A stretch of DNA of 64,000 nt, taken from positions 1 to 64,000 of the forward strand of contig NZ_SEWE01000025.1 of the NCBI RefSeq assembly GCF_004167665.1, in the 5' to 3' direction. The position numbers and the translations under genes were made by a program. This document shows, in pieces, positions 58,971 through 64,000 of this stretch. How positions within the stretch are numbered: the stretch's first letter is position 1; each line of letters opens with the position of its first letter. Below the pieces are notes generated by a model, which saw nothing but the letters and a program-made list of their open reading frames with translations, was not told the origin of the DNA and made no database searches. The stretch is from Hymenobacter persicinus. Its GTDB lineage: Bacteria; Bacteroidota; Bacteroidia; Cytophagales; Hymenobacteraceae.

Positions 58971-61268
58971 TTAGAGGTGTTTTGAAATGGTGAAATAAAA
59001 AGTGGCGCCTTGCCCACGCACTGAATCAACCCACAAGCTGCCTCCATGTTTCTCCACCATCTTCTTCACGATGGCCAAGCCGGCGCCGGTACCGCCCCCA
59101 TACTTTTCCTGGGAATGCAGCCGCTTGAAGATCTTGAAAATATTCTCGTGGTGACGCGGGTCGATGCCGATGCCGTTGTCGCGGACGTAGAACACGTGAA
59201 AGTCGTTGGGGTTCACCGGGCCTTTCGGGCTTCGTACGGTTGGAACCGTCCCGATGTGCACCGTTTTGTGCTCCCGGTCACTGTAGCGCATGGCGTTGGT
59301 GAGCAGGTTGTTGAATACTTCCCGCATCCGCACTTGGTCGCAGCGCACCAGGGGCAGGGGCTCTGCGATGGTAACGGTGGTCTGGGTTTGCTCGAGGCGG
59401 GGCGAAAGCAGATCCAGCACTTCGGCCACTAGGGCATTCATATCGGTTTCGACCAGCACCAGATCGAGGCGGCCCACCCGGGAAAGCTGCAGCAGGGACT
59501 CAATCAGGTTCTCCATGCGCTGACTTAGCCGGACCAGGGTCTGGAGCTTGCCCACGCCGTCGGCGTCGAGCTTGTCGGCGTAGTCTTCGAGCAGAAACAG
59601 CGAGTAGTTGTGAATACCGCGCAAAGGCTCCTTCAGGTCGTGGGAGGCCACGTAGGCAAAGGAGTCCAGCTCGTCGTTGCTGCGCTCGAGCTCGGTGTTG
59701 AGCTTGCTGAGGGTGGTAGCGCGGGCTTGGAGCTCGTTGAAAATCTTGAGCCGCACGTCGGAAATGTGCAGGCGAATTTCCTTGGCGGCCTCAATCTCCA
59801 TCGGCTTCCAGGGCAGGGCCGTGCTTTCCACCACCTGCTTCCACTGCTCAAACGACTGCCGGGGCGAAAGGAAAATCTGCCCGTCGGCCATTACCTCGGG
59901 CTTTTCGTCGCGGCCAGCCCAGGTGACGGTCTGCACCTGCTCGGGCCGGAACCAGAGGATGTAGTTGCCGGGGGCCTCAGCCAGGGCAATGGCCAGAATG
60001 CCGCTAGCCGTGGGCCGGATAGACAGCCCGTCCGGGTTGAGGCTGGCGTAGGAGTTGGTGTAGAAAACGTCGCCGGTGCGGTGGTGCTGGAGCCAGTCGA
60101 GCACCTTCTGAATCTGGGGTTTGGTCGGCGTGTGGCCCAGCGGAATGATGTCGTCGTCGAAGCAAATGGCCACCCCGCCGCAGTCGAACACGTCGAGCAG
60201 GCTGGGCTTGAAGCGGTAAAGGCCCTCCACGAAATTGTCGTTGCTGGTCACGCGCTCAAACAGGCGCACCTGGTTTTCGCGGATGTGCAGCTGATATTCC
60301 CGCTCATCGTGCTGCTCCTTGGACGTTATCAGGGCCGAAAACGTCTTGCCAATGAACTGGCACAGGTCGCGCAGCTCGTAGCTGACCAGCTTGGGCGTGC
60401 GGTGGTGGCAGGTTATCATGCCCCAGAGCCGCCCGTCCTGGATCAGCGAAATGGTCATGGTAGCCGCCGAGCCCATGTTGCGCAGGTACTGTAGATGAAT
60501 CGGCGACACGCTGCGCAGCACCGAGTAGGTCATGTCGGGCGGCAGGTGGGTGCTGGGGTTGAGCACCGGCAGTAGGCGGGTGGGCTCGTAGGCCACGTCG
60601 GGAATAAAGCGCAGCCAGTTTTTGAGGTACATGGCCCGGGCCTGCTTGGGAATGTCGGTGGCGGGGTAGTGCATGCCCAGCCAAGGCTCAATGTCCTCGT
60701 GCCGGGCCTCGGCAATGACTTCGCCGCTTTCATCGGGCGCAAACCGGTAGATGGCCACCCGGTCGAAGCCCGTAATGGCGCGCACCTGCTCCACGGCGTA
60801 CTGGCAAAATTCCAGCACCCGCGTGGCGCCCAGCATCTGCCCCAAAGCGTTGTTGAGGAAGGGCAGATCCAGCTGGGGCACCGCGTTTTCGTCCACGGGC
60901 TCAAACTCCAGCCACAGCAGCTGGTCGTAGCGGTGAAGAATGATCTTGTAGAAGGGCTGCCCAGCCACGTGGTCGAGGCGGGAGCCCAGCAGCCGGGCGT
61001 CGGTGGTTAGCGTGGGCAGCAGCTGCTCGATTTCGGCCAAGCGGGCGGGACCCAGCAGCTGGTCGAGGGTGCCGCCCACCAGGTCGGAGGCCGCCACGCC
61101 AATTCGCTCAAGGGTATTCTCGCTGGCTTGCACTATCCGGTGAGTGGTTTCGTGCAGGCAGAGCAAAAAGCCGTAGGGCTGAATCAGGCCGGGAATGTGG
61201 ATGGGCTCCCGGTCGCAGTTGGTCAGGTTTATTTCGGCGCCCAGCAGGCTCTCATCGGTATAGCTCAT
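58971..61268 (-). CDS. bphP: Bacteriophytochrome histidine kinase
   Basis: 765 residues: PAS (about 15-120), GAF (about 140-310), PHY (about 330-500) and kinase (about 535-765). Biliverdin-binding Cys18 is in [20 protein letters not shown]. The GAF motif is [11 protein letters not shown] (201-211; consensus PASDIP), the chromophore-contacting His258 lies in [12 protein letters not shown], and the PHY tongue has SPRQSF (469-473). The kinase has His543 in [13 protein letters not shown] and ATPase motifs [26 protein letters not shown] and [13 protein letters not shown]. It should sense red and far-red light and phosphorylate the response regulator downstream. The ATG overlaps the heme oxygenase stop by four bases. 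Confidence 0.97.
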
Positions 61269-61837
61269 GGTCGATTTAGCCAGGCGTAAAGTTTCTGGAA
61301 GGTCAGGCTGGCCGATTGCACAAGTTCATCCGGTCCCGCGGCGGGGGCGGCCTCAGTCAGCAGCTGGCAAAATAACTTCCATTGGGGGCCGGTCCGTTCC
61401 CCTGCGCCCTGGAAGAAGGTGCGGGCCGGGATGCCGGCTTTGGCCAGCTGGCGCGCAATAACCTGCCCGCCCAGCGTGGATCCTTCCAGTACGTACATGG
61501 CGCCCAGCAGTTGAGCTTGCGTATCGAGCGGCGGCATATCCGGGCACAGGGGCAAGCCGGGCGCGGCGGGGTTTCGGTGCAGATCCTGCAGAATCAGGGG
61601 CGCCCGCAGCCGCCGGGACACCTCCCACTCAGGACCGAGTGAAGCGCTCTGGAGCCGGACTTCGTAGGGTTGCAAAAACCCGTACATGTCGGCCAGAAAC
61701 TGCTCGGTGCCGGCCCGGGAAAGCGTGCCGGCCGTCAGGGCCTGATTGAAGTCGTTCTGCTCGAGGGCATCGTGGTAGGGGCGGGTTTCGGCGCGCAGCC
61801 GCGCCAGAATGCCGGGTGCTTCGGTGGGAGGGAGCAT
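61265..61837 (-). CDS. bphO: Biliverdin-producing heme oxygenase
   Basis: 190 residues from ATG 61837 (MLPPTEAPGILARLRAETRPYH). The likely proximal heme ligand His22 is in TRPYHDALEQNDF. QAQLLGAMYVLEGSTLGGQVIARQLAKAGI is the distal helix motif of the bacterial heme oxygenase family. It degrades heme to biliverdin, iron and carbon monoxide, providing the chromophore for the phytochrome encoded next. Its TGA stop and the phytochrome ATG share ATGA. Probable promoter: CATCTTTG on the minus strand at 61867-61860, one mismatch from the -7 element. Confidence 0.92.
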   Translation of the reverse strand: MLPPTEAPGILARLRAETRPYHDALEQNDFNQALTAGTLSRAGTEQFLADMYGFLQPYEVRLQSASLGPEWEVSRRLRAPLILQDLHRNPAAPGLPLCPDMPPLDTQAQLLGAMYVLEGSTLGGQVIARQLAKAGIPARTFFQGAGERTGPQWKLFCQLLTEAAPAAGPDELVQSASLTFQKLYAWLNRP

Positions 61838-62275
61838 GGACACAGGAAAATAACACGGGCAAAGATGGGGCAAGTACGCCAGCCGCGCGAGAAGGATCCG
61901 GTTTTTTGCTGGAAGCCGCTGCCGAGCTTGTTGGCGGCCATAATTCAGAGGTCAAGCTCAGTTCAACTTATGTGTCCAGAATGGCCTGGGGTAGCGGAAT
62001 TTGCTTTCCGATAAATGCCAGACCGATATTCTACCACCCCACGATATGGGTAGCGCGGGCAACGCAACTGGCGGTGGCAGTCTTGCTGGAATGGTCGGGG
62101 TGACTCACCACACCTGTTGTTTCGATGGTGGCTTCGGAGCCCAGGGTACTCATGGTAATCCTGTGGCCGTTGAGCAACCCGATTTTGGTGATACCGTTGG
62201 TTTATAGCTTCTGCACGAGCCAGAAGTGCCTCCGACCTGGCAACTAATTTGAAATTCAGGGCACAGGCCGAAAAC
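61838..62275. other. Region with no recognised gene between the phytochrome operon and the tRNA fragment
   Basis: About 440 bases hold the bphO promoter and otherwise nothing clear. On the minus strand a short frame from about 62195 to 62036 encodes about 50 residues (…GLLNGHRITMSTLGSEATIE…) that were not recognised. Base use is more even than in the genes around it, as expected for decayed or non-coding sequence. Confidence 0.4.
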
Positions 62276-62314
62276 AAAACCGCCTCCCAGACTTGGCGTC
62301 TAGGAGGCGGTTTT
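62276..62314 (-). terminator. Terminator of the interrupted tRNA-Gly gene
   Basis: AAAACCGCCTCC (62276-62287) pairs with GGAGGCGGTTTT (62303-62314), with an inner AGAC/GTCT stem. On the minus strand it follows the tRNA 3' end by six bases. Confidence 0.85.
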
Positions 62315-62320
62315 CCAATG

Positions 62321-62365
62321 AGCGAGAAACGAGGTTCGAACTCGCGACCCTCAGCTTGGGAAGCT
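62321..62365 (-). other. tRNA-Gly(CCC) 3' fragment, putative attachment site
   Basis: On the minus strand the segment reads AGC, anticodon loop TTCCCAA (anticodon CCC), GCTGA, variable bases, a T-arm GCGAG-TTCGAAC-CTCGT, acceptor strand TTCTCGC and discriminator T, as in tRNA-Gly. Nothing upstream supplies a D-arm or the matching acceptor strand GCGAGAA, so only the 3' part is present. Its terminator is kept. Integrases that target tRNA genes leave just such a fragment, running from the anticodon loop to the end, at one junction. The integrase gene begins 156 bases away on the far side. Confidence 0.8.
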
Positions 62366-62451
62366 ACACTTTGAGGGTTGTCAATAATTGTTGATATGCC
62401 TTAGCGGTAGAAAAAACCGTGTTTTTAGCGTTTTTGGCCTATCTGGACTTA

Positions 62452-62481
62452 TTGTCGTTACCCTCCTTTCTATTATATTTG
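62452..62481 (+). promoter_or_regulatory. Integrase promoter
   Basis: TTG (62452-62454), 19 bases, then TATATTTG (62474-62481), an exact TAnnTTTG. Transcription would start near 62488 inside the first of two tandem repeats. Confidence 0.7.
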
Positions 62482-62504
62482 TTTAAACCAGCGTTTAAAC
62501 CAGC
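62481..62504 (+). repeat. Two tandem 12-bp repeats at the integrase start site
   Basis: GTTTAAACCAGC occurs at 62481-62492 and again at 62493-62504, perfectly. Each copy contains the palindrome GTTTAAAC. They span the expected transcription start, so a protein bound there would repress the gene. Confidence 0.85.
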
Positions 62505-62520
62505 GTTGGGATAAGCAGAT

Positions 62521-63888
62521 ATGGCAACGACTGAACACAAGGAAGGTAAGGCCACGGTCAAGGTTGTGTACTACACCTACAAAACGCTGGCCGATGGGTC
62601 ACACCCGTTCATGGTGCGTATTACCAAAGACCGCAAGCTGAAGTACATTGCTACCGGCCAGAGTCTGCACCCAAAGTACTGGAACCCGCTTAAAAAGGAA
62701 GTACGCAAAAGCTACCCTGAAAAAGCCCGCGAAAAGCTGCTGACGAAACTGGCAGAATGGCAAGCCAAGTACAGCGGGGCCGCCGATACGCTGGCCGAAG
62801 CCGATGAGCAACACGACGCGCCGGCCGTAGCCGCCAAGGCCATTGAAGGACGCAAAGCAGCACGGCGAATAAAGCTGCTGGCCTACTGCGACGAGCTGAG
62901 CGCAGGCTACCTCAAAACCGGCCAAGCTGGCAATGCCACCGTGTACCGCGACTTGCGCAACCAGTTGGCAAAGTTCGTTGCAGCTGAGGCCAACGCGCCT
63001 GCGCCGCCCACCGGCCGGGGCCAAGCCGACGCCTGGGCTGAATGGGTAGGCCGCTACGACGTGCCCCTTGACCGGGTAAACGTGGCGTTCTGCCACGAAT
63101 GGGAGCAGGCCTTACGTGCTACTGGTATCAAGGAAATAACCTTGTCGCTGCGGTTTCGCACGTTGCGGGCCGTTCTCAATCAAGCTATTGCGGCCGGGTT
63201 GGTGAAGCCTACGGCATATCCGTTCGCCCGCACCGTGGCCGAAAAGCACAAGCTGCAAGTCGGCAAGTTTGACGTGAGCACGGGCAAACGAGCCATTAGC
63301 CGCGACGAGCTGCGCAACTTGGAAGCCTTGCCTACAGCCACCGACCGGCAGCGGCTGGCGAAGGATATCTTTTTGTTCTCGTTCTACGGGGGCGGTATCA
63401 ATTTTGTGGATTTGGCCCAACTGCGTTGGCGCGACCTGACCGGGGCCGCCGTGGATACCGGCTATGCCGACCGCCTGCACTACGTGCGCCAAAAGACAGG
63501 CGGTAAGTTCTCATTGCGGCTGCTGGCACCTGCCGCCGCCATTGTGGCTGCTTACCGGCCATTCACTTTTGCTACGCCCGATAGCTACGTATTTCCGGTG
63601 CTGGATTCTGCCAAGCACGTCAGCCCCGCTCAGGTAAGCAACCGGCTGCACAAAGTGCTGGGGCAAGTAAACAACGAGCTGAAAACACTGGGGCAACTCG
63701 CTGGCATTGCCACGCCCCTCACTACTTATGTAGCTCGTCACACTTTTGCTACTACACTCAAACAAGCTGGGACTCAGATCGCTCTCATTTCGCAAGCAAT
63801 GGGCCATAAGTCAGAAGCTGTAACCGCGGTATACCTAGATTCCTTTGCATCGGATGTGATAGATTTAGTCTATGAGCAATTATTATAA
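62521..63888 (+). CDS. Tyrosine-type site-specific integrase
   Basis: 455 residues. An N-terminal arm-binding domain (about 10-75, VYYTYKTLADGSHPFMVRIT) precedes a SAM-like core-binding domain (about 115-250). The catalytic domain has HxxR in YVARHTFATTLKQAG, the second His in AMGHKSEAVTAVY and a probable nucleophile Tyr in VYLDSF. The usual first catalytic Arg in the (Y/F)xRG region is replaced: SFYGGGINFVDLAQLRW. Some Bacteroides integrases also lack this Arg. The protein should integrate and, with a helper, excise the element at the tRNA-Gly site. Confidence 0.92.
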   Translation: MATTEHKEGKATVKVVYYTYKTLADGSHPFMVRITKDRKLKYIATGQSLHPKYWNPLKKEVRKSYPEKAREKLLTKLAEWQAKYSGAADTLAEADEQHDAPAVAAKAIEGRKAARRIKLLAYCDELSAGYLKTGQAGNATVYRDLRNQLAKFVAAEANAPAPPTGRGQADAWAEWVGRYDVPLDRVNVAFCHEWEQALRATGIKEITLSLRFRTLRAVLNQAIAAGLVKPTAYPFARTVAEKHKLQVGKFDVSTGKRAISRDELRNLEALPTATDRQRLAKDIFLFSFYGGGINFVDLAQLRWRDLTGAAVDTGYADRLHYVRQKTGGKFSLRLLAPAAAIVAAYRPFTFATPDSYVFPVLDSAKHVSPAQVSNRLHKVLGQVNNELKTLGQLAGIATPLTTYVARHTFATTLKQAGTQIALISQAMGHKSEAVTAVYLDSFASDVIDLVYEQLL

Positions 63889-63964: not shown

Positions 63965-64000
63965 TGCACAATTATGCACAGTGTTGCACAGTGTTGCCTA
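63965..64000 (+). repeat. Tandem 10-bp repeats with TGCACA core
   Basis: TGCACA occurs at 63965, 63975 and 63985, with TGCCTA at 63995: a strict 10-base period, cut by the window end. One repeat per helical turn puts every copy on the same DNA face, as in iterons or operator arrays. Confidence 0.75.

Follow-up and report, generated by a model that had tools for sequence, protein, structure and literature searches.

A tRNA gene fragment beside an integrase gene raises two questions: does it mark the edge of a mobile island, and how would such an integrase tell its own island from others at the same tRNA? We addressed both in Hymenobacter persicinus, for a window of 64,000 nucleotides (positions 1-64000 of the 67,257-bp contig C25; the assembly comprises 4.8 Mb in 134 contigs). 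At 62316-62365, the minus strand of the window carries a 50-bp attachment-site copy, the displaced 3' part of tRNA-Gly(CCC), which is identical to C2:213838-213887 on another contig (E 3.6e-19 in a search of the own assembly). With this E value for an exact 50-bp match, a chance hit can be dismissed. The copy consists of positions 29-74 of the intact tRNA-Gly(CCC) gene at C2:213810-213883 (L002 1473-1546) and four additional bases; its tRNA part, window positions 62320-62365, measures 46 nt, and ARAGORN called no tRNA gene in the window. The assembly holds one intact tRNA-Gly(CCC) gene and a single 50-bp fragment, the two other matches being intact tRNA-Gly genes with other anticodons. On the host side, 3' of the fragment on the fragment's strand, a terminator-like hairpin (62276-62314, minus strand) can be read as an inverted repeat with a T-run, AAAACCGCCTCC ... 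GGAGGCGGTTTT. Toward the element, 155 bp separate the fragment from the start of a tyrosine integrase gene at 62521.

The earlier note on this DNA, made from the window alone, had described a 45-bp tRNA-Gly(CCC) 3' piece, followed by its terminator and directly next to a tyrosine integrase. This description is accurate apart from one nucleotide of length; the gap of 155 bp makes the wording on adjacency fair, and all three integrase domains score above the Pfam cut-offs. The note had also expected an intact tRNA-Gly(CCC) of given orientation at the far end of the element, which is borne out by the gene on C2, and a second copy of the fragment to the right of position 64000. The second copy exists, but its place is on C2; C25 stops at 67257.

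Inward from the two attachment-site copies, the assembly contains 8.7 kb of element DNA on C2 and 4.9 kb on C25. The C2 portion extends for 8.7 kb from the tRNA to the contig end (C2:222549), which lies inside a perfect 22-bp tandem repeat; the same repeat is reached at the end of C25, 3.4 kb beyond the integrase. This array (L005:7154-7257 and L006:19451-19550) lies between converging genes, and within the genome its unit is found only at the ends of C2 and C25. Because both contigs break in one repeat that is absent elsewhere in the genome, they most likely represent the two ends of one island and are joined through the array, a join based on the shared repeat. C2 must be reversed to be joined to C25, and the tRNA thereby takes the predicted orientation. 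The island would then span about 13.7 kb (4,942 + 8,712 bp) plus the array. At both junctions, the G+C content differs between host (62.7% and 63.2%) and element (50.3% and 48.0%). The locus thus shows the Islander signature, with an intact tRNA and a displaced fragment in the same orientation at two ends, on two contigs whose join is inferred, and with the integrase gene between them. With high confidence, we interpret the fragment in the window as the displaced end of a mobile island that has integrated here.

The 22-bp unit occurs in only 1 of 120 genomes of the genus and the array sits between converging genes, which does not support it as a replication origin with iterons or as a trait of the island family; it is treated here as a strain-specific tandem repeat. 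A 23-bp repeat in genome G052 that resembles the array was likewise discarded, since by reading it lies within a coding region.

As an element, the island is of a known and ordinary kind, integrated at a tRNA and carrying defence genes as cargo. On the window side, the gene order is integrase, HTH_17 protein, primase-helicase, DUF6371 protein and array. The integrase (62521-63888, plus strand, 455 aa) combines Arm-DNA-bind_5 (PF17293), Phage_int_SAM_5 (PF13102) and Phage_integrase (PF00589), and its arm-binding domain covers approximately residues 12-95, with a leucine at residue 40. Between the integrase and HTH genes, 10-bp repeats of the TGCACAGTGT type (63965-64000, continuing to contig position 64010), are possible regulator or excisionase sites. 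The 110-aa HTH_17 protein reaches 25.0 bits with the excisionase model TIGR01764, below the cut-off of 28.8. The 508-aa primase-helicase contains D5_N and DUF5906 and matches the 'P4 family' model TIGR01613 with 169.5 bits (cut-off 108.7), and the 349-aa DUF6371 protein carries a zinc ribbon. After the array, the order on C2 is a NucS-like protein of 347 aa (PADLOC PDC-S11, 265 bits), a 239-aa protein for which no family was matched, an HsdM-S fusion and HsdR (Pfam ResIII, HSDR_N) of a type I restriction system, an AAA ATPase, and, adjoining the tRNA, a 215-aa protein with a weak PADLOC match (E 1.4e-4).

These genes suggest how the island may work. The N-terminal domain of the integrase would bind arm sites, and its core-binding and catalytic domains would bind the sequence of the anticodon stem-loop, so that the enzyme could recombine the tRNA gene with a circular form of the element. 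Since the element would bring in a new 3' half, the tRNA would keep working. The HTH protein may direct excision and the primase-helicase may replicate the resulting circle; protection of the host against phages could come from the restriction and AAA genes.

None of the scanned island proteins matched relaxase, capsid, terminase or packaging families. Specifically, capsid-size or packaging proteins (Psu, Sid) had no match in Pfam and NCBIfam (10 proteins) or PHROGs (8 proteins), two proteins being without a Pfam family; delta is a further P4 function in capsid size and packaging. Rather than a phage-satellite-like element, the island could be an integrative mobilizable element that is moved by conjugation, a reading that we regard as tentative and rather doubtful. 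It draws on NBU1, a mobilizable element of Bacteroidetes with an IntCTnDOT-type integrase, which resides in a tRNA-Leu gene (PMC8138268). Against it, no relaxase or mobilization domain was present in the 10 proteins scanned against Pfam, and the P4-family primase weakly suggests a replicating satellite or plasmid-like element.

The presumed binding sites of the integrase can be read at both ends of the island. On the integrase side, two copies of GGTTTAAAC lie 12 bp apart on the minus strand (62481-62489 and 62493-62501), and on C2 a matching GGTTTAAAC pair begins 48 bp beyond the tRNA 3' end; the same 9-mer is therefore found on both contigs. A dead remnant, in which the tRNA fragment would be an old scar and the integrase inactive, is unlikely in our view, since both attachment-site copies, both arm pairs and the integrase reading frame are intact.

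The earlier note had also proposed a comparison with a related genome that lacks the element. No empty site was found by a protein search with the flank gene (60 relatives), a DNA search with the tRNA region (60) or a DNA search with the flank (119); the 120 genomes searched with the flank included no near relative. In 14 relatives, the flank gene (window 61265-61873) and tRNA-Gly(CCC) are located on one contig, more than 230 kb apart as judged by eye. The left flank thus looks lineage-specific. Just outside the island, about 150 bp at 62004-62159 have a 78% match on contig C1 and, among the matches listed, matches of 73-82% in many relatives; by its sequence, this stretch seems to be the degraded remains of some conserved gene.

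The integrase belongs to a family that is well represented in the genus. A protein search yielded 42 copies with at least 505 bits in 39 of the 120 genomes, the relatives being Hymenobacter according to named records, and the next scores were 316 (a broken copy) and 191. Each of the 42 adjoins the 3' fragment of a tRNA gene for Gly (CCC), Val or Arg (TCT), in the same geometry. We compared the surroundings of the 41 copies outside the own genome (G000), where the fragment derives from tRNA-Gly(CCC) in 30 cases, from tRNA-Val in 6 and from tRNA-Arg(TCT) in 5. An exact partner copy was present for 24 of the 41, which gives element lengths of 6,192-37,509 bp; 12 had an intact tRNA of the same kind without an exact partner copy, and 5 had none within the stretch compared. 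The left limit of identity varies between elements and in G031 lies at tRNA position 33, the base just before the anticodon, which places the crossover there or further 3'. These limits across the family support the integration at the anticodon loop that the earlier note had assumed. Gene content is modular (phmmer: HTH in 36 of 41, D5 protein in 4, DUF6371 in 10) with variable cargo, and some other members carry a DUF3987 or AAA protein in the position of the primase.

Several features of individual family members were recorded alongside. Broken integrase copies occur at G015:C7:535-1843 and G003:C1:2223624-2224932, in genomes that also possess an intact copy. Upstream of the integrase in L127, L134, L143 and L151, a second arm-like pair follows past the displaced fragment, which suggests tandem islands at the same tRNA. 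ARAGORN called a tRNA-Ser(GCT) in L158 (G114) and a tRNA-Leu(GAG) in L163 (G013) shortly after the integrase gene; both calls overlap the HTH frame and are probably false. The element in L159 (G050) includes a complete tRNA-Val(CAC) near its tRNA-Val(TAC) end, a second one is located immediately outside the displaced fragment, and the stretch behind the attachment core seems to be duplicated at both ends. Beyond the genus, the related integrases L219-L256 (Spirosoma, Larkinella, Fibrella and others; 39-60% identity) adjoin 3' parts of various tRNA genes, by eye apparently Val, Gly, Pro, Cys, Asp, Arg, Lys, and Met or Ile. With such varied neighbours, the family seems to retarget between tRNAs.

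Arm sites follow a common layout throughout the genus. On the integrase side, a 9-mer is present as two direct copies spaced 12 bp apart, frequently accompanied by one in inverted orientation, and in most elements a pair of the same 9-mer is positioned 48-49 bp past the tRNA end on the tRNA side. Among the 42 copies, the arm is GGTTTACAC in 14 and GGTTTAAAC in 12, with rarer forms in the remainder and one arm that was not found. Base 7 is A in GGTTTAAAC, C in GGTTTACAC and T in GGTTTATAC. When the far end was tested at a fixed offset (49 bp; 48 bp in three elements), the arms of the two ends agreed in 33 of 36 elements, compared with 228 of 1022 cross comparisons with different-arm elements. 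Even the pairs that failed this two-copy test (G100, G075 and G034) retain the expected base 7 in the second copy. A cruder count of 8-mers gave two-end agreement in 18 of 23 elements, against a shuffled mean of 9.0 and a maximum of 16. For G055, we used the tRNA-side arm; the copies on the integrase side, TAATTACAC and GGATTACAC, leave base 2 uncertain and base 7 unaffected. The arm of G034 is the first copy, the second being AGTTTAAAC, again without effect on base 7.

The covariation between an integrase residue and an arm base is the result worth following. Residue tables contain 41 aligned integrases, numbered as in G000 and excluding G003b with its broken start. In all 41, residue 40 is consistent with arm base 7: a C is accompanied by R in 17 of 17 cases and a T by Q in 11 of 11, and the 13 integrases with A have L (12) or H (1). 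The far-end second arm copy, 3-37 kb away from the integrase gene, obeys the same rule without exception in 36 of 36 elements: R is paired with C in 14, L (11) or H (1) with A in 12, and Q with T in 10. Residue 18 behaves similarly toward base 4, being K whenever this base is G (6 cases) and Y or F whenever it is T (35 cases). In the AlphaFold model of the arm domain (mean pLDDT 78.5), three beta strands (12-17, 28-36 and 39-49) and a helix (67-95) form a beta-beta-beta-alpha arrangement, in which residue 40 lies near the start of strand 3 and residue 18 just after strand 1. A fold search with the predicted N-domain returned no solved arm-binding domain among the matches listed; the best were a Foldseek hit with E 0.27 and, in VIA, a baculovirus protein with Z 5.4.

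The rule was fixed before we inspected the DNA upstream of integrase genes in Spirosoma, Larkinella, Fibrella and other sources. This blind set comprised 34 of 93 loci (31 of 80, and 3 of 13 viral loci), including three from Hymenobacter (L209, L227 and L244). From the 80 loci, we left out 24 Hymenobacter loci taken as genomes already used and 25 distant ones (<40% identity); from the 13 viral loci, 10 that were distant or had no upstream DNA, among them L283 and L291. The partial match G124 was not used, and L282 appears to duplicate L239. By the stated rule, an arm was found in 26 of the 34 loci and none in 8. Residue 40 allowed a prediction in 15 cases, of which 14 were right: all 12 from outside Hymenobacter (R with C in 11, L with A in 1) and 2 of the 3 additional Hymenobacter loci; this count should be read with the fact that 11 of the 14 hits are R with C. 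The other 11 rows, with N, S, V or K at residue 40, all have A at base 7. The single failure, Q with A, came from Hymenobacter gummosus (L227), where the integrase lies beside an intact tRNA-Gly, and this is perhaps a partly lost island. Inspected by eye afterwards, 7 of the 8 rows without an arm fit the rule, with C in L245-L248 and L255 (all R) and A in L220 and L238; L228 is mixed.

Residue 20 agreed with arm base 5 in 41 of 41 integrases of the genus and was rejected, as the blind set gave 12 right and 11 wrong predictions. Residue 21 predicted base 2 in 22 of 22 blind cases, which says little since 21 of the 22 are K with G. Residue 18 was right in 18 of 18, of which 16 are Y or F with T. 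In leave-one-out prediction of C versus not C over 66 rows (41 + 25), residue 40 was correct in 66 of 66; the next best column reached 55 and the median was 38.

A link between neighbouring protein and DNA positions could reflect only the shared ancestry of integrase blocks and adjacent DNA. Arm and N-domain do adjoin each other and seem to be exchanged together: in integrase pairs whose remainder is 85-100% identical, N-domain identity is 0.89 with the same arm (n=5) and 0.71 with different arms (n=4), which fits an exchange of N-domain and arms as a block. Ancestry alone nevertheless appears quite improbable to us. Trees built after removal of the arm domain require, for base 7 and residue 40 alike, a minimum of 15 changes among the 41 rows and of 24 among the 66 rows (the latter tree excludes L284); R with C is upheld by 11 of 11 independent pairs (p 0.00098), and the rule is kept by all 36 far-end arms at a distance of 3-37 kb. 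In the case of Q with T (5 of 6, p 0.0625), and likewise of K18 with G4 (4 of 4, p 0.125), there are too few supported pairs to reach significance. Arginine prefers G and glutamine prefers A, and G and A are the bases opposite the arm C and T; this chemistry, too, speaks against ancestry as the sole cause.

The covariation thus suggests a natural DNA-recognition code, for which we hold the following reading to be probable, with moderate confidence. Residue 40 on the third beta strand would read arm base 7, with R for C, Q for T, and L and most other residues for A, and residue 18 would read base 4, with K for G and Y or F for T. By this code, arm sequences would diversify among islands with a common tRNA core site. 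In the circular attP, a stretch of a few hundred bases would contain the core and the two arm pairs, so that one exchange could replace both arm pairs together with the N-domain. Islands at the same tRNA should consequently ignore each other's arms, and neighbours would not act on one another.

That the ends of C2 and C25 belong to two different elements or copies, whose true partners are absent from the assembly, is very improbable: the join does cross a repeat at which the assembly breaks, and relatives seem to carry islands in tandem at this tRNA, with second arm-like pairs past the fragment, but the assembly has a single intact tRNA-Gly(CCC) and a single 50-bp fragment, the 22-bp unit is restricted to these two contig ends and to 1 of 120 genomes, and the arm 9-mer is identical at both ends.

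The integrase family represents a natural experiment, in which one core site is combined with arms that have changed on many occasions and can be read at either end of each element. If confirmed at the bench, the code would point to the way in which islands at one tRNA avoid cross-talk, make arm sites and island ends predictable from the integrase sequence, and could provide orthogonal integrase/att pairs for genome engineering in Bacteroidota. In the openly licensed literature, as represented by titles and the beginnings of abstracts, we found no description of an arm-site code or of such Hymenobacter islands.

P4-like satellites and PICIs have a characteristic gene order, which the island resembles with its integrase at one end, small HTH protein, P4-family primase (TIGR01613) and defence cargo. 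Satellites are described in PMC11389934; the island differs from them in that no packaging, capsid-size or terminase gene was detected in it, and some members of its family have a DUF3987 or AAA protein instead of the primase. Its cargo resembles type I restriction-modification in having HsdR and HsdM-S, but M and S are fused, and the 239-aa protein without a family and the NucS-like PDC-S11 protein follow. Islander-type islands are characterized by an intact tRNA, a displaced 3' fragment and an integrase inside, and include an anticodon-centred attP class, site A (PMC4383910); the present island shares these features and the crossover in the anticodon loop, but is split over two contigs, and its arm sites are readable at both ends. 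Arm binding is documented for lambda Int (PMC4880445); PMC8138268 covers arm-binding domains, with their beta-beta-beta-alpha secondary structure, and the IntCTnDOT subgroup with CTnDOT and NBU1. As judged by domain content, the present enzyme is similar to the IntCTnDOT subgroup as a Bacteroidota integrase with arm-binding, core-binding and catalytic domains, whereas its own family targets the anticodon loops of several tRNAs and uses pairs of 9-mer arms spaced 12 bp apart.
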